NCBI GenBank assembly: GCA_030429865.1
Contig: JAUIFX010000009.1
Location: forward strand, 1 to 43,824
DNA length: 43,824 bases
From: Gammaproteobacteria bacterium
Lineage (GTDB): Bacteria; Pseudomonadota; Gammaproteobacteria; Ga0077536
Direction of reading: 5' to 3'
Below the pieces are notes generated by a model. The model had not been told where the DNA came from, made no database searches, and saw only the letters and a program-made list of their open reading frames with translations. Below, one piece after another: positions 654 through 12,091 of the stretch. The position numbers and the translations under genes were made by a program. Within the stretch, counting starts at the first letter, position 1. Each line of letters begins with the position of its first letter.

Positions 654-2891
654 TCAGGCGCCCGTGCGCAGCGCGAGTTCGTGGTCCATCACCGGCAGCG
701 CGCGGATCCGCGGTCCGCCGGCGGCGTGGATGGCGTCGACCAGTGCGCCGATGACGACCGGCACGGCGCCTTCGCCGATCCCCGTGGGCGGCGCATCCGA
801 GGGCATGACGTGCACCGCGATGGCGGGCGTTTCGGCCAGGCGCATCAACCGGTAGTCGTGAAAATTGGATTGCTCGACGCGGCCATCGCGCAGCGTGATC
901 TTGCCGTAGAGCGCGTTCGACAGGCCGAACAGGATGCCGCCCTGGATCTGCTGCTCGACGAGCTGCGGGTTGACAACGGTACCGCAGTCGACGGTCGCGG
1001 TGACGTCGTCGACGCGCAGCCCGCCGTGGCCGTCCAGCGTGACGTCGAGCGCTATCGCGATGCACGAATTGCGGTAGCCGGGGACGTAGCTCATGTCGTA
1101 GACCGCGTGGCCGCGTCCGCGCCCGATACCTTCGGGTCGCGCGCCCGCCCGCGCAGCCACGGCTTCGAGCAGGCGGCGGTAGCGGCGCACGCGCGCGACG
1201 GCGTCACCATGATCGGCGCGCGCCGGATCGATGCGGCTCTCGTCGAGCAGTGTGAGCTGGAAATCGAGCGTGTCGACCCCCGAGGCGTGCGCGATCTCGC
1301 TCAGGAAACCATGGTTCATCCAGGCCATCTGGGTATGGCCGACACCGCGCATCCAGGCGAAGCCGGGCGGCGTGTCGATTTGTCCGTAGCGCATTTCGAC
1401 ATGCGGCACGGGGTAGGCGAGACGCGTGAAACCGTAGGGCTGCTCGACCGCGGTGCCCTGCACCACGTGGGACTGCCAGGCAGTCAGCGCGCCGTCGCCA
1501 TCGAGCCCGGCGCGCAGGCGCGCGGCGAGCGGCGGCGGGTAGTAGCTGCGCCGCAGCGATTCTTCGCGCGAGACGATGAGCTTGACCGGCACGCCCGGCA
1601 GCTGGCGCGCGATCTGCACCGCCTGGCTGACGTAGTCGTTGTGCAGACGGCGGCCGAAGCCGCCGCCGGCGAGCGTCAGGTGGAAGCGCGCGTCCTTGAG
1701 CGCGACGCCGGCGGCGTAGGCCGCGATGCGCAGGGCCTCGTCGCCGTACTGGGTCGGTGCCCAGGCCTCGACGCGGCGGCCGTCGACGAGCGCGGTGCAG
1801 TTCATCGGCTCCATCGGCGCGTGTTCGAGGAACGGGTAGTGGTACTCGGCCTCGATGACCCGTGCCGCAGCGGCGAGCGCGGCGGCGGCATCGCCTTCGC
1901 TGCGCACGACCCCGCCCGGCGCCTCGAGCGCCGCGGCGAGTTCGCGCGCGATGCCGGCACTGTCCACCCCGGCATGGGGACCGTCGTCCCATTCGATCGG
2001 CAGGGCCTCGATGGCGCGTTCGGCCTGCCACCAGCTATCGGCGACGACCGCGACGGCGTCGTCCATCCGCCAGTCGATGACGTCCCACAGGGTCGGCGGC
2101 ACGGTGTAGCCGCTGGGGCCGGCGTCGATGCGCACGACCGCGCGTACGCCGGGCAGCTCGCGCACCGCGGCGGCATCGAAGCCGCGCAGGCGGCCGCCGA
2201 ACACCGGCGACTGGCGCACCGCGGCGTACTTCATGCCGGGCAGCTGCACGTCGATGCCGTAGCGTGCCGTGCCGGTGACCTTGGCGGGAACGTCGTTGCG
2301 GTCGAGCGCGCGGCCGATGTAGCGCCACGCCTGCGGAGACTTCAGGCTGATGCTCGCGGCATCGGGCAGCGGCGCGGCGGCGGCGCGCGCGGCGAGCGCG
2401 CCGAAACCGATGCCGTGGCCGGCGCGAGGATCGCGTACCCGGTGCGCCTCGATGACGAGATCGCCGGCCGCTGCATCGAGTTGCTCCGCCGCGCTCGCCA
2501 GCAGCAGCGCGCGGATCCGCGCACCGGCGAGGCGCATGGGTTCGAACAGCATCTTCACGCCCCAGCTCGCGAGCGTCGAGGTGTGCACGTAGACATTGCC
2601 CTGGCTGACGTTCGTTTGCGGGTCGTAGAAGGCCCAGTCGGTCAGGGCGAGGTCGAGGTCGAGCTCCTCGGCGACGATCTGCATCAGCGCGGTCGTCGCG
2701 CCCTGGCCGATCTCGCTCTGCGGGATGCGCACGGTGACGCGGTCGTCGGGGTGGATCACGACCCAGTGGTGTACGTCGAGCGCGGCTGCGTCCTCGCCTG
2801 CGTGGAGCGGGATCGTGAGATCGAAGGCCAGCGCGCCGCCCGCCGCCAGCGTGCCACGGAGAAAGCCGCGCCGGTCGAAGCGTGCGCTCAT
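654..2891 (-). CDS. Xanthine dehydrogenase-family molybdopterin-binding subunit (IorB-like)
   Basis: A 745-residue large subunit of a two-component molybdenum hydroxylase of the isoquinoline 1-oxidoreductase (IorB) type. It starts [13 protein letters not shown], a twin-arginine signal, so the enzyme is probably exported or membrane-attached. The body has the aldehyde-oxidase/xanthine-dehydrogenase layout: [16 protein letters not shown] near residue 215, a glycine-rich [12 protein letters not shown] cofactor loop, and GIGEGAVPV near the C-terminus, which holds the expected catalytic Glu. There is no CxxCH haem motif, unlike the NicB nicotinate dehydrogenase subunit. The start ATG overlaps the stop of the upstream [2Fe-2S] subunit by four bases (ATGA), indicating translational coupling. 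The family hydroxylates a carbon next to ring nitrogen, or oxidises aldehydes, using water; the substrate here is not known. Confidence 0.9.
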
Positions 2892-3349
2892 GCCGCTGGC
2901 GCGGCCAGCGCGGCGGCGGCGTGGATCGCGGCGCGCACGCGCGGGTAGGTGCCGCAACGGCACAGGTTGCCGATGGCGGCGTCGATGTCGGCATCGCTGG
3001 GTGCCGGGTTGCGCGCGAGCAGTGCGGCGGTCGCCATGATCATGCCCGGCTGGCAGTAACCACATTGCGGCACGTTGGCATGGATCCATGCCTGCTGCAC
3101 CGGGTGCAGCGCCGTCTTGCCGAGACCCTCGATGGTGGTGATCTCGGCATCCGCGACGCGCGCCACCGGCAACTGGCAGGACGGCATCGCCCTGCCATCG
3201 ACGTGTACCGTGCAGGCGCGGCATTGCGCAATTCCGCAGCCGTACTTGGTGCCGGTCAGCGCGAGGTCGTCGCGCAGCGCCCACAGCAGGGGCTTGTCCG
3301 GAGCGCAGTCGAGTTCGACGGCCTCGCCGTTGACGGTCAGTCGGATCAT
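2888..3349 (-). CDS. (2Fe-2S)-binding small subunit of molybdenum hydroxylase (IorA-like)
   Basis: A 153-residue electron-transfer subunit with two [2Fe-2S] clusters. The plant-type N-terminal cluster uses Cys38, Cys43, Cys46 and Cys58 ([10 protein letters not shown]). The helical C-terminal cluster uses Cys96, Cys99, Cys130 and Cys132 (CGYC and LCRC). Length and motif order are those of IorA and other xanthine-dehydrogenase small subunits. It is the first gene of the leftward operon and overlaps the large subunit by four bases. A GGGGGAGA ribosome site precedes the ATG. It has no signal peptide of its own, so it would be carried across the membrane with the Tat-tagged large subunit if the enzyme is exported. 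Partner assignment is firm; the substrate is not. Confidence 0.92.
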
Positions 3350-3582
3350 CGTCGCGTTCTCCCCCGCATGGCGCTACGCCGTGCACGTGTCCCGATGGCG
3401 CGATTGTGGACCAAAACGCTGCGGGCGCGAATCCCGCGGCGCTTGAGCCCGGTCAAAGCGTGCCTGCCGCGGGCTTTCTATGCTTTTTCCTACTGCCCGG
3501 GCGGGTCCGTACCCGGGTCCACGCGGTGGCGGTCCAGGGCAGGTGCCGCCGCGCCGCGCCCGTGAACCAAGGGGAACACACG
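3350..3582. other. Divergent control region between Mo-hydroxylase operon and flavoprotein
   Basis: These 233 bases separate two divergent transcription units. I see a possible -10 element TATGCT at 3479-3484 reading rightward, without a good -35 at normal spacing. There is also a GC-rich inverted repeat, CGGGT at 3502-3506 against ACCCG at 3511-3515, flanked by CCCGGG on both sides. No gene and no clear regulator motif were recognised. Confidence 0.35.
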
Positions 3583-5181
3583 ATGAATCTTGCCGCCGCG
3601 ATCAGCGACTGGCGCACCGTGCTCGGCGCGGAGCGGGTGCTCGAGGAGACCGCCGCACAGGACAGCTACGGGCGTTGCACGAGCGGCGCCAGGCGGCGCA
3701 TCGCCGGCGCGGTGCGCGCACGTGCCGCGGACGATGTCGCCGAAGTAGTGGCAATCGCCGCGCGCCACGGCGTGCCGATCTATCCCGTCAGCACCGGTCA
3801 CAACTGGGGCTATGGCACGTCGTTGCCGGCGCGCGACGACTGCGTGGTGCTCGACCTCTCGGCGCTCGACCGCATCGTTGCCTTCGACCCCGGCACCGGC
3901 ATCGTCACCGTCGAGCCGGGCGTGACCCAGCAGCAGCTCGCCGATTTCCTCGACGCCGGCGATCACCCGTTCCTCGTGCCGGTGTCGGGCGCCGGGCCGA
4001 GCTGCTCGATCCTCGGCAACGCCGTCGAGCGCGGCTATGGCATCACGCCACACGCCGATCATTTCGGCGCGGTGATGGCGATCGAGGCGGTGCTGGCCGA
4101 TGGCCGCATCTATCGCTCGGCGCTCGCCGAGGCCGACGGTGCGGATGTCGACGATGCCTTCAAGTGGGGCATAGGCCCGTACCTGGACGGCCTGTTCACG
4201 CAGAGCGCGATGGGCGTGGTGACGCGCATGAGCATTGCCCTGGCGCGGCGGCCGCAAGCCGTTCGCGCTTTCTTCTTCGGCCTTCCGGACGCGGCCGACC
4301 TGGGGCACCTGGTCGAGCGCGTCCGCGAGGTGATCGCGCGTTACCCGGGGGTCGTCGGTGGCGTCAACCTCATGAACGCGCGGCGCGTGCTGTCGATGTC
4401 GATTCCCTATCCGCGCGACCGGCTGGGCGCGGACGGCCTGATCCCCGATGCCCTGATCGACGAACTCGGCCGCGCCAACCAGGTCATGGCCTGGACCGGC
4501 TTCGGCACGCTGTACGGCTCGCGCGGCGTGGTGCGCGCGGCACAGCGCGAGATCCGCGCCGTACTCAGACCCTATGCCAAGCGGCTGGTCTACATCAGCC
4601 CCTTCAGCGCGCGCTGGCTGGCACGGCTGGGGCGGCTGCTGCCGGGCTTTCTCAAGGCGCGCGTCGGGCGCAGCCTCGAAGTCCTGGAAACCTCCATCGA
4701 ACTCGTCGCCGGGCGCCCCAACGAGACGGCCATGCCGTTGTGTTACTGGATCGGCAACCAGGCGGCGCGCGCGCCGGGTCCGCTCGATCCGGCACGCGAC
4801 GGCTGCGGCGTTGCCTGGTACGCACCGCTCATCCCGATGCGTGCCGAGCGCGTGCAGGCCTACGTCGCGATGGTCGACAAGGTCATGCGCGAGCACGGCC
4901 TGGAACCGCTGATCACGCTGACCAGCCTGTCGGAGCGTTGTTTCGACAGCACCATTCCGCTGCTGTTCGATCTCGACGACGCCGGCAGCACGGCCAACGC
5001 CCAGGCCTGCCGCCGGGCGCTGCTCGAGGCCGGGCGCGCGCAGGGCTTCCTGCCGTATCGCGTCGGCATCGATACCATGGACTGGCTGGTACGCGACGAC
5101 GCGACCTGCTGGCAGATGGTGCGCGACATCAAGCAGGCCCTGGACCCCGGGCACATCATCGCACCCGGACGCTACGTGTGA
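3583..5181 (+). CDS. FAD-binding oxidoreductase, vanillyl-alcohol oxidase / 4-cresol dehydrogenase type
   Basis: A 532-residue cytoplasmic flavoprotein. The N-terminal half is a PCMH-type FAD domain (FAD_binding_4) with the segment STGHNWGYGTS around residues 69-79 and VEPGVTQQQLADFLD about 40 residues later. The C-terminal half is a cap domain ending DPGHIIAPGRYV, as in 4-cresol dehydrogenase (PchF), eugenol hydroxylase and vanillyl-alcohol oxidase. Family members oxidise para-alkyl phenols or related alcohols through a quinone methide. I cannot tell which residue, if any, binds FAD covalently. The ATG at 3583 follows an AAGGGGA ribosome site. It is divergent from the molybdenum hydroxylase operon and 53 bases ahead of an Nramp-like permease, suggesting a shared aromatic substrate pathway. 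No cytochrome subunit lies next to it, so its electron acceptor is unknown. Confidence 0.85.
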   Translation: MNLAAAISDWRTVLGAERVLEETAAQDSYGRCTSGARRRIAGAVRARAADDVAEVVAIAARHGVPIYPVSTGHNWGYGTSLPARDDCVVLDLSALDRIVAFDPGTGIVTVEPGVTQQQLADFLDAGDHPFLVPVSGAGPSCSILGNAVERGYGITPHADHFGAVMAIEAVLADGRIYRSALAEADGADVDDAFKWGIGPYLDGLFTQSAMGVVTRMSIALARRPQAVRAFFFGLPDAADLGHLVERVREVIARYPGVVGGVNLMNARRVLSMSIPYPRDRLGADGLIPDALIDELGRANQVMAWTGFGTLYGSRGVVRAAQREIRAVLRPYAKRLVYISPFSARWLARLGRLLPGFLKARVGRSLEVLETSIELVAGRPNETAMPLCYWIGNQAARAPGPLDPARDGCGVAWYAPLIPMRAERVQAYVAMVDKVMREHGLEPLITLTSLSERCFDSTIPLLFDLDDAGSTANAQACRRALLEAGRAQGFLPYRVGIDTMDWLVRDDATCWQMVRDIKQALDPGHIIAPGRYV

Positions 5182-5234: not shown

Positions 5235-6536
5235 ATGAACGCATCCTCCCGCTGGCAGACATTACGCCTCGCGCTCGGTCCGGGCCTGCTCTGGGCCGGC
5301 GCCGCGGTCGGCGTGTCGCACCTGGTGCAGAGCACGCGGGCGGGCGCGACCTTCGGCCTCGGGCTCATCGGCCTGGTGGTCTTCGCCAACCTCTACAAGT
5401 ACCCGACGTTCAGCTTCGGGCCGCGGTACGCGGCGGCGACCGGTACCAGCCTGCTCGAAGGGTATCGGCGTGAAGGGCGCTGGGCGCTGGCGCTCTACGC
5501 CACCGTGACGCTGGCGACGATGTTCACCGTGCAGGCGGCGGTGACGTTCGTCACCGCGGCGCTGTGCACCACCCTGCTCGGTATCGACGGCGTGGTCTTC
5601 GGCCAGCCCGCGGTCGTCGTGCTCTCGGGCCTGCTGATGGCGTTGTGCGCGGGCCTGCTCGTGTTCGGCCATTACAAGTGGCTCGACAAGATCATCAAGG
5701 TCGTGGTGGTCGTGCTGACCGTGACCACGTTGCTCGCGACGCTCGCCGTGATACCCAAGCTGCCATGGGATTCGCTACGTATCCTGCCGGCCGGCGACTG
5801 GATCACGACGACGACGACGGCGGTCATGCTGTGCGCGCTGGTCGGCTGGATGCCGAGCGCTTTCGACATCTCCGTGTGGCATTCGCTGTGGACGCTGGCG
5901 CGGCGGCGCGAAACCGGCCGGGCGCCGAGCGTCGCTGCCGCATTGACGGACTTCAACATCGGCTACCTCGGGACCGTGTTCCTGGCGCTGTGCTTCATGA
6001 TGATGGGCGCCGGCACCATGTTCCAATCGGGCGAGAGTTTCGCTGCTGCGCCGGCGGCCTTCGCAGCGCAGATCGTGCGCCTGTACACCGAGAACCTCGG
6101 CGCATGGACCGCCCCGATCGTCACGCTGGCCGCGTTCGCCGTGATGTTCTCGACCACGCTCACGGTGATCGACGGCCTGCCGCGCGCGCTCGCCACGCTG
6201 TTGGCGCGTTTCCGCGGCGCCGAGACCCCGGGCGAGCCCGATGCGATCAGTCGCCACGTCTACTGGGCGGCGCTGGGCGTGCTGTTCGTCGGCTCGATGA
6301 TCGTCATCGAGTTCTTCATCCGCTCCTTGACGGCGATGGTCGACGTGGCGACGGTGCTCTCGCTGCTGACCGCGCCCGCGCTCGCCTGGCTCAATCACCG
6401 CGCGATCACCTCCGACGTCGTTCCGGTCGCCGCGCGCCCGGGCGCCGCGATGCGCGCCTGGAGCTGGTGCGGCATCGCCATCTCGCTGCTGCTCGCGAGC
6501 TACTTCGTCGTCATGCGCTGGGTGGTCGGCGCCTGA
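5235..6536 (+). CDS. Nramp-like membrane transporter lacking the DPGN metal motif
   Basis: A 433-residue inner-membrane protein with about 11 hydrophobic spans and the overall Nramp outline: GPGLLWAGAAVGVSHLVQST in the first span, a conserved KYPTF after the second, and a broken helix GWMPSAFD where Nramp has its sixth-span MPH motif. The DPGN metal-binding motif of true Mn/Fe transporters is replaced by GVSH, and the sixth-span histidine by serine. It is therefore unlikely to move divalent metal in the classical way. It lies 53 bases behind the vanillyl-alcohol-oxidase-type flavoprotein in a probable operon, so import of the substrate of this locus is one possible role (inference). The ATG at 5235 has only a weak GGGAAG upstream. 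Confidence 0.72.
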   Translation: MNASSRWQTLRLALGPGLLWAGAAVGVSHLVQSTRAGATFGLGLIGLVVFANLYKYPTFSFGPRYAAATGTSLLEGYRREGRWALALYATVTLATMFTVQAAVTFVTAALCTTLLGIDGVVFGQPAVVVLSGLLMALCAGLLVFGHYKWLDKIIKVVVVVLTVTTLLATLAVIPKLPWDSLRILPAGDWITTTTTAVMLCALVGWMPSAFDISVWHSLWTLARRRETGRAPSVAAALTDFNIGYLGTVFLALCFMMMGAGTMFQSGESFAAAPAAFAAQIVRLYTENLGAWTAPIVTLAAFAVMFSTTLTVIDGLPRALATLLARFRGAETPGEPDAISRHVYWAALGVLFVGSMIVIEFFIRSLTAMVDVATVLSLLTAPALAWLNHRAITSDVVPVAARPGAAMRAWSWCGIAISLLLASYFVVMRWVVGA

Positions 6537-11081: not shown

Positions 11082-11200
11082 ATGCGCCCGTGCCCACGCG
11101 GGCTGCGTGAGCGCACGGCCGGGCGCGCGCGTCTGGCACAATGCGTGGCAGCGCCCCGCCGCTGCGGGTGCGCATTCACGACCGGGGAGGCGAGAAGTCC

Positions 11201-12091
11201 ATGAGCGAGCAACGGGCGCGGCGCGCGCCGTTCGACAGACAGGCGCTGTGGTTCGACAGCGAGGGCGTCGCGCTGTGCGGCTGGCTGGCCCGTCCGCATG
11301 CCGCCGATGCCCCTGTACCGTTGATCATCCTCACTCACGGCTTGTCCGGCATCATCGATCTCGACCTCGCCGAGTACGCCGAGCGTTTCGTCGCCGCGGG
11401 CTTTGCCTGTTTCGCCTACGACCACCGCAACTGGGGCCGCAGCGCCGGCTGGCCGCGCGGCGAGAGCGATCCGTGGCGCCAGGTCGGCGACCTGCGCGAG
11501 GCGATCAGCTTCGCACGCACCCTGCCCGGCATCGATCCGGACCGCATCGGCCTGTGGGGGACGAGCTATGCCGGCGGTCATGTCCTCACCGTCAGCGCGC
11601 TCGACCGCCGCGTGCGTTGTGCCGTTTCGCAGGTGCCCTTGACGAGCGGCTCGCGTACCTTCGAGAGCTGGGTGCCGGCCGACAAGCGCGCCGCGTTCCG
11701 CGCGCGCCTCGACGCCGATCGCGACGCGCGCCGACGCGGCGAGCCGCCAGCGGTGACGGCCGCCGCGACGCGCGGTTCGGAGACCGCCGAATGGGTCGCA
11801 CGCAAGGATGTCGACGGCCGCTACGACAATGCGCTGACCCTGCGCAGTTTCGACTTGCTGCGTACCTACGAGCCGGCGTCGTTCTGCGCGGCCATCGCGC
11901 CGACGCCGCTGCTGATGATCGTCGCCCGGCACGACACCACCACGCCGACGGCCTGGCAGCACGAGGCGTTTGCCGCGATCGGCGAGCCCAAGCAGCTGCT
12001 CGAGCTCGACTGCCGGCATTACGACGTCTACATGGACCATCTCGACGCCGCCGCGGATGCGGCGCTCGCCTGGTACCGGGCCCACTTGTGA
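11201..12091 (+). CDS. Alpha/beta hydrolase
   Basis: A 296-residue serine hydrolase. The oxyanion segment LTHGLSG is near residue 40, the nucleophile elbow GTSYAGG near 125, and later IVARHDTTTP likely carries the catalytic Asp and the C-terminal YMDHLD the His. The overall order matches dienelactone-hydrolase/CocE-like esterases. ATG at 11201 follows a good GGGGAGG site at 11184-11190; a CACAAT hexamer at 11137-11142 could be its -10. It is 25 bases ahead of the exporter gene and likely co-transcribed. The substrate is not readable from sequence. Confidence 0.87.
   Translation: MSEQRARRAPFDRQALWFDSEGVALCGWLARPHAADAPVPLIILTHGLSGIIDLDLAEYAERFVAAGFACFAYDHRNWGRSAGWPRGESDPWRQVGDLREAISFARTLPGIDPDRIGLWGTSYAGGHVLTVSALDRRVRCAVSQVPLTSGSRTFESWVPADKRAAFRARLDADRDARRRGEPPAVTAAATRGSETAEWVARKDVDGRYDNALTLRSFDLLRTYEPASFCAAIAPTPLLMIVARHDTTTPTAWQHEAFAAIGEPKQLLELDCRHYDVYMDHLDAAADAALAWYRAHL

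Follow-up and report, generated by a model that had tools for sequence, protein, structure and literature searches.

To our knowledge, all biochemically well-characterised members of the Nramp fold carry metal ions. The NRMT (Mg) and NRAT (Al) branches of this fold keep the aspartate of the first transmembrane span (TM1), with the motifs DxxG-TxxA/T and DxxN-AxxT, respectively, according to the accessible part of the report on them (PMC8806188). Two further members of the NRAMP family, PxpT of C. glutamicum and YcsG of B. subtilis, are needed for the use of 5-oxoproline and their deletion blocks growth on it, as stated in the available portion of PMC13274462. YcsG has also been claimed to be a Mn importer (PMC10448178), and MumT of A. 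baumannii, again of the NRAMP family, was reported to raise cell Mn (PMC5050338), both according to the accessible parts of these papers. Ray, Berry and Gaudet (2026, PMC12873925, in the accessible text) describe the Nramp-related groups as paraphyletic and devoid of DPGN, MPH and the proton residues, and as all uncharacterised except for the NRMT-like group and the MntG group.

The gene described here lies in the window, by which we mean the whole stretch of 43,824 nucleotides that was analysed. Its product agrees with the description of Nramp-related proteins given in the accessible text of PMC12873925, as it shows Nramp homology without DPGN and MPH and without the TM3 proton residues. Since it fits this description, we regard the carrier as a defined, uncharacterised branch of the Nramp-related proteins and not as a new fold or system.

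The carrier gene, its replaced motifs and its predicted fold

The open reading frame of the carrier is intact, runs from ATG to TGA and comprises 433 codons plus the stop codon. The protein scored 30.8 bits with Pfam PF01566, just above the cut-off of 29.8, and 57.5 with NCBIfam NF037982 (cut-off 50). PF01566 was matched at E ≤ 0.001 by 62 of 80 clade members, and the NCBI model "Nramp family divalent metal transporter" gave 53–65 bits against a cut-off of 50 in all five members scanned. A search of the PDB with a profile of 25 homologues returned the S. capitis DMT/MntH structure 7phq (E 4e-6), NRAT (7e-5) and DMT1 (6e-3). The copy in the other genome of the window's genus is 96% identical. 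A second Nramp in the window's own genome was rejected, as the only other PF01566 match there lies below the cut-off and its translation resembles, by eye, a sodium:solute symporter. The positions of the carrier and of the other features are collected in Table 1.

Table 1. Features of the window, in window coordinates.
Feature	Position	Strand	Basis or remark
Molybdenum hydroxylase pair (MoCoBD large subunit and 2Fe-2S subunit)	654..3386	-	Strand opposite to the flavoprotein–carrier pair
Upstream FAD enzyme, p-cresol methylhydroxylase/vanillyl-alcohol oxidase family	3583..5181	+	53 bp ahead of the carrier start
GVSH-type Nramp-related membrane carrier, 433 aa	5235..6536	+	ORF, marginal Pfam/NCBIfam Nramp matches, AlphaFold2 model
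Codons for G26-V27-S28-H29 of TM1, in place of DPGN	5310..5321	+	Profile and direct alignments, conservation
Codons for W205-M-P-S-A-F-D211 at the TM6 break, replacing the MPH region	5847..5867	+	Alignments, model helix break 206–211
Downstream DUF6632 protein, 138 aa	6629..7045	+	Kept only in the same-genus genome
Alpha/beta hydrolase	11141..12091	+	UilS quorum-quenching lactonase model, 136 bits vs cut-off 400

A preliminary description of this DNA had claimed that the DPGN motif of span 1 is replaced by GVSH, that the Met-Pro-His of span 6 is replaced too, and that the overall Nramp outline is kept; all three claims were borne out. Residues 26–29 of the carrier read G-V-S-H and fall, without gaps, on D-P-S-N of the plant NRAT (8ont) and on D-P-G-N of DMT1 (9f6n) in the profile alignments, and the direct alignment with E. 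coli MntH places D-P-G-N in the same columns. The TM6 segment reads G204-W-M-P-S-A-F-D211, with S208-A209-F210-D211 aligned on M-P-H-N; E. coli MntH has MPHV where the carrier has SAFD, both Met and His being replaced. It should be noted that "MP" does occur in the carrier at residues 206–207, two residues ahead of the aligned MPH place, which is itself occupied by SAF. The TDIAE stretch in TM3 of 7phq has its Asp and Glu opposite Q100 and V103 of the carrier, and each of the 172 aligned rows has V, L or I at position 103. Three features of family membership, namely DPGN in TM1, MPH in TM6 and the acidic proton path of TM3, are absent from the carrier, which is, as judged from these alignments, without the canonical Mn/Fe site.

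Structure prediction and comparison with LeuT-fold transporters had been proposed as a check in the preliminary description. AlphaFold2 was run on an alignment of the window protein with 79 of 80 selected relatives (L159 was too short and was omitted). The model of the carrier reached a pLDDT of 93.9 and a pTM of 0.92, with TM1 as a single unbroken helix (residues 16–40) and TM6 broken at 206–211. The top VIA-align match was the outward-open DraNramp structure 6d91 (Z 39.0 over 388 residues, 2.8 Å, 15% identity; TM-score 0.75/0.81), and EleNRMT (Z 33.9) and the integrative model of YcsG, 9a52 (Z 33.5), were also matched. Next after the Nramps came the amino-acid carriers of the APC superfamily, SLC7A10 (Z 31.3) and AdiC (Z 31.2). 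Foldseek ranked EleNRMT first (top matches 7qji and 7qia). The Nramp outline is supported both by PF01566 and by a confident predicted fold, with the Nramps as the best matches and the APC carriers behind them. We conclude that the carrier is predicted to have the Nramp variant of the LeuT fold; a common fold alone is no proof of function. An unbroken TM1 in the model leaves room for a substrate site other than that assumed below.

Extent and conservation of the clade

Relatives were searched for with the window protein as the query, together with L096 in one search and L139 in another. Matches at E ≤ 0.001 were found in 4 of 58 relatives, in 28 of the 369 genomes that represented the class and in 19 of the 299 for the phylum, and further in Neomarinimicrobiota (37 of 100 genomes), Bacteroidota (105 of 345) and Planctomycetota (56 of 294), many of these matches being weak and directed to other Nramp-related groups. 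A motif-guided scan of named genomes yielded at least 582 related stretches, 80 of which were kept. Within the window's own family, the gene was present in 3 of 36 genomes, the window's genome included. A literature search, which covered few subscription papers, returned no paper on the clade described below and no measured substrate for its members.

Site conservation was counted over 172 aligned rows, from which L039, L042 and L077 (loci without a called focal gene) were excluded; 89 of the rows were picked by whole-protein similarity and not by motif. These 89 rows, drawn from strong matches, are all different and not independent of each other, 40 coming from Bacteroidota and 20 from Neomarinimicrobiota. 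Gly26 is present in 172 and His29 in 171 of the 172 rows. Among the 89 rows picked by similarity, the conserved TM1 residues are G26 (89), S28 (88), H29 (88) and T34 (89), and those of the TM6 region are W205 (89), M206 (88), P207 (89), S217 (88) and W219 (89). Position 211 holds an acid in all 89 (D in 67, E in 22), and K55, D313 and R317 are invariant in them. The sole exception at positions 28–29 is L038, which has A and N there. As the replacing residues are nearly invariant across the clade, the canonical site appears to have been swapped for another conserved site and not to have decayed; this near-invariance, together with the at least 582 related stretches, also places the replacement of the motifs beyond chance.

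In a tree of 44 chosen rows, in which E. coli MntH is the one DPGN protein, the 28 GxSH rows stand on one side of a branch with a support of 100/99, separate from the GAGD-type relatives, a pair of pxp-linked proteins and MntH. Of the remaining rows, L076 (Skermanella), which also has GASH, lies just outside as the sister of these 28 rows (100/99 with L076 included). The deep branching order is unsure because of the long branches of L033, L007, L076 and MntH. By alignment and tree, the clade is monophyletic and spans many phyla, with the signature G-x-S-H in TM1 and W-M-P-x-x-x-[DE] in TM6. The window protein pairs with L081 of the Planctomycetota (100/100). Its nesting among planctomycetotal and acidobacteriotal sequences, together with the presence of the gene in 3 of 36 genomes of the family, suggests that the window's copy was probably gained by horizontal transfer.

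Candidate cargo and gene neighbourhoods

The reading that we prefer, and for which we see an even chance, is that the protein is an alternating-access carrier from an uncharacterised Nramp-related branch whose cargo is other than Mn or Fe and likelier a small organic solute. The protein would work as a secondary carrier with the Nramp (LeuT-type) fold, moving its cargo by alternating access. The alignment and the single-state predicted model suggest that the cargo would be held between the broken TM6 (W205, M206, P207, D/E211, S217) and TM1 (G26, S28, H29, T34), and that its main polar contacts would be His29 and the acid at position 211. Mn or Fe is an improbable cargo, since the site has lost its hard (Asp, Asn) as well as its soft (Met) metal ligands. 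By analogy with the 5-oxoproline permease PxpT/YcsG and with the amino-acid carriers of the superfamily, a small polar organic solute would be the likeliest class of cargo.

The neighbourhood survey of homologues that the preliminary description had proposed was carried out on 189 loci, and it named no substrate: the surroundings of the carrier are stable inside a lineage and differ between lineages. In one survey, the focal gene was found in 159 of 174 loci, the other 15 being dropped as they were missed by the simple gene caller. From 101 non-redundant same-strand neighbours, 98 were scanned and three above 700 aa were left out. No operon partner common to the clade was found, and no Pfam family, among the best 25 of 156, occurred in more than 3 of the 98 same-strand neighbours, the most recurrent (3 of 98) being methyltransferases. 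None of the metal-regulator families was matched by more than one of these 98 neighbours, single matches being listed in part, and no Rfam riboswitch reached the gathering threshold in 60 loci of ~4 kb, where one rRNA match was the only hit. The lack of recurring same-strand metal regulators and of riboswitches, together with the loss of the canonical ligands and the precedent of PxpT/YcsG, favours an organic cargo over a metal.

Counting against this preference are the Mn claims for YcsG and MumT, the nickel synteny in Planctomycetota and the locus L105. Moreover, the analogy is drawn from a distant clade with a disputed substrate, as YcsG is claimed for Mn in the accessible part of PMC10448178. 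An organic substrate had been put forward in the preliminary description as new for the fold; this novelty does not hold, as PxpT and YcsG are already implicated in 5-oxoproline uptake (accessible part of PMC13274462). No PxpA match (E ≤ 1e-3) was seen among the called neighbours of the 189 loci, and the pxpA gene of the window's genome lies on another contig (C243). A more specific form of the proposal, which we offer tentatively and hold to be short of an even chance, is that the GxSH clade would comprise distinct Nramp-fold carriers of small organic compounds, possibly containing sulfur or selenium and other than 5-oxoproline, with a His29–Asp/Glu211–Trp205 site and without the Nramp proton path.

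A divalent-metal carrier, in which His29 and Asp/Glu211 would hold Ni, Co, Zn, Mg or Mn without the DPGN/MPH site, is a serious possibility that we place below an even chance. A conserved His plus Asp/Glu could indeed bind a metal as well, metals are what the well-studied members of the fold transport, and the NRAMP-family proteins YcsG (PMC10448178) and MumT (PMC5050338) are reported, in the accessible text, to raise cell Mn. Against a metal, Asp, Asn and Met have each been lost as ligands, and the scans of 98 same-strand neighbours and 60 loci gave neither a recurring metal-regulator family nor a riboswitch. In eight Planctomycetota loci (L101, L342, L344, L345, L347, L348, L353 and L081), nikR lies near the carrier on the convergent side, at position +2 in six and +5 in two. 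Putative Ni/Co uptake genes share this side, in the form of a Pfam DsbD_2 membrane protein (HupE/NiCoT-like by eye) in six loci and of CbiQ together with an ABC ATPase in the other two. On the divergent side, seven of these loci have an iron enzyme resembling haem oxygenase and/or a ferrochelatase. The two alternative putative uptake systems occupy the same place beside nikR.

The position of the NikR operator was examined. It consists of two inverted seven-base half-sites 14 bases apart and lies just upstream of the planctomycetotal nikR. Twelve Planctomycetota loci were scanned with up to three mismatches allowed, shuffles of seven loci giving three matches. Each of the eight nikR loci has one operator, with no mismatch in seven and one in L345, away from the carrier start; it stands in front of nikR in the seven loci where the nikR start was placed by script, and before the carrier gene in none of the eight. 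The other matches were one three-mismatch site in L344 and one site in L343, and in the four further Planctomycetota loci the stretch contained neither nikR nor a site with 0–2 mismatches. As the operator is never ahead of the carrier, the carrier is not behind this operator in the eight nikR loci, and nickel regulation there, suggestive as the synteny is, was rejected. L105 carries a ninth nikR relative (44% identity), two genes upstream of the carrier and on the other strand. A one-mismatch site (spacing 13) lies there between nikR and a divergent 176-aa gene, which itself precedes the carrier by ~135 bp (L105:8615-11284), so that NikR may control the pair formed by the 176-aa gene and the carrier. 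This site makes a metal cargo slightly more likely; the window's own genome has no NikR. A consistent association of homologues with metal regulators, which the preliminary description had named as speaking against an organic substrate, was thus found in part: nikR is near the carrier in eight Planctomycetota loci and in L105, but in the Planctomycetota it is convergent and its box is not before the carrier in 8 of 8.

The flavoprotein next to the carrier suggests another reading, namely a dedicated importer for the aromatic or phenolic substrate of this vanillyl-alcohol-oxidase-type enzyme, which we consider improbable. The p-cresol methylhydroxylase/vanillyl-alcohol oxidase family oxidises 4-substituted phenols. 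The linkage to a catabolic flavoprotein noted in the preliminary description is real in the window, where the two genes share a strand, and the second genome of the genus (L036) retains both the flavoprotein (96% identical) and the DUF6632 neighbour. Elsewhere the linkage does not hold: with called neighbours within 5–6 genes, L036 is the only one of 189 other loci (185 distinct) with a same-strand flavoprotein, and the pairing is missing from the remaining 188. The only other matches are two weak relatives of the flavoprotein on the opposite strand (L093, 29% identity; L112, 24%). Besides, the window's genome has a 56% identical paralogue of the enzyme on a contig without an Nramp match, and phenols often cross into cells without a carrier. 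Being confined to the genus, the link was rejected as a clue to the substrate. The paralogue (G000:C267, L309) adjoins genes for a DUF1302 protein, a MacB-type permease and an ABC ATPase. A relative of the large ORF of the molybdenum hydroxylase pair is also kept in L036.

Ranked after this is the reading that the cargo would be a sulfur or selenium compound, such as cysteine or its selenium analogue, and would feed lipoyl and selenocysteine synthesis; we think it very doubtful. In 19 loci, lipA (NCBIfam assigned the two copies scanned to lipoyl synthase) is the first or second gene after the carrier; it shares the carrier's strand in 18 loci, all of Bacteroidota, and lies on the opposite strand in L133 (Nitrosomonadaceae), where an LplA/LipB-type gene adjoins it. 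In flavobacteria, the gap between the carrier and the same-strand lipA is below 50 bp in 11 of 15 loci with lipA directly next (e.g., L139:8337-12108). A sigma-70 factor gene and a glycosyltransferase gene are often found upstream of these flavobacterial pairs. In one Neomarinimicrobiota lineage, selA lies upstream of the carrier in 14 loci and selB downstream in 13, on the carrier's strand (L096:7777-13152; also L102, L110 and L206–L216, some ended by the contig), which makes the carrier of this lineage a candidate selenium-linked transporter. A TauE/SafE gene (before selA in L096) and, by eye, trmD and rplS also precede the carrier in this arrangement. However, each arrangement is restricted to a single lineage and may reflect inherited synteny, neither occurs in the other loci, including nine further Neomarinimicrobiota loci that lack the selA/selB linkage, and the selenocysteine system is missing from most flavobacteria.

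That the gene is a decayed, non-functional Nramp or a chance ORF, as a Pfam score barely above the cut-off might suggest, is contradicted by the clade-wide conservation, the 96% identity in the sister genome and the confident fold, and can hardly be entertained.

Relation to described systems

As members of the clade pass the NF037982 cut-off yet lack the canonical metal ligands, "divalent metal transporter" annotations across phyla may be wrong. For testing the cargo of Nramp-related proteins, the clade offers a well-defined signature, targets for point mutation and cultured hosts known by name; Salinisphaera japonica, Leeuwenhoekiella parthenopeia and Psychroserpens burtonensis, for instance, turned up in the motif-guided scan.

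The carrier is like canonical Nramp/SLC11/MntH proteins (DraNramp, E. coli MntH, DMT1) in fold, in length and in a PF01566 score above the cut-off, and differs from them in having GVSH instead of DPGN and in the loss of MPH and of the TM3 acids, the identity in structural alignment being 10–15%. With the NRMTs (EleNRMT, CabNRMT) it shares the fold and the position as an Nramp-related branch without the transition-metal site; however, the NRMTs keep the TM1 Asp, where the carrier clade has Gly in 172 of 172 rows. The DxxN-AxxT motif of NRAT is not present in the carrier. The preliminary description had taken the Mg and Al members of the fold as precedents without the motif; as both NRMT and NRAT retain the TM1 Asp (accessible part of PMC8806188), they are no analogues of Gly26 of the carrier.

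Proteins of the YcsG/PxpT/MntG type are alike in being Nramp-related, in possibly having an organic cargo and in structure (YcsG model 9a52, Z 33.5). In our tree, this type was represented by L161 and L163, which lie in pxp clusters of annotated plasmids. Both have Gly for the TM1 Asp, as the carrier does, but within GPGF, and are without the TM6 WMP...D/E; they form a branch of their own (100/100) outside the GxSH clade. Many Nramp-related proteins of PMC12873925 keep, in the accessible text, a TM3 acid that is lost in the carrier. The amino-acid carriers of the APC superfamily (AdiC, ApcT, LAT1, SLC7A10) have the LeuT fold in common with the carrier (Z 28–31), but with ~10% identity they are a different family. 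On the basis of sequence, the large bacterial group behind the carrier is distinct from the NRMT, the NRAT and the pxp-linked (YcsG/PxpT-type) proteins.
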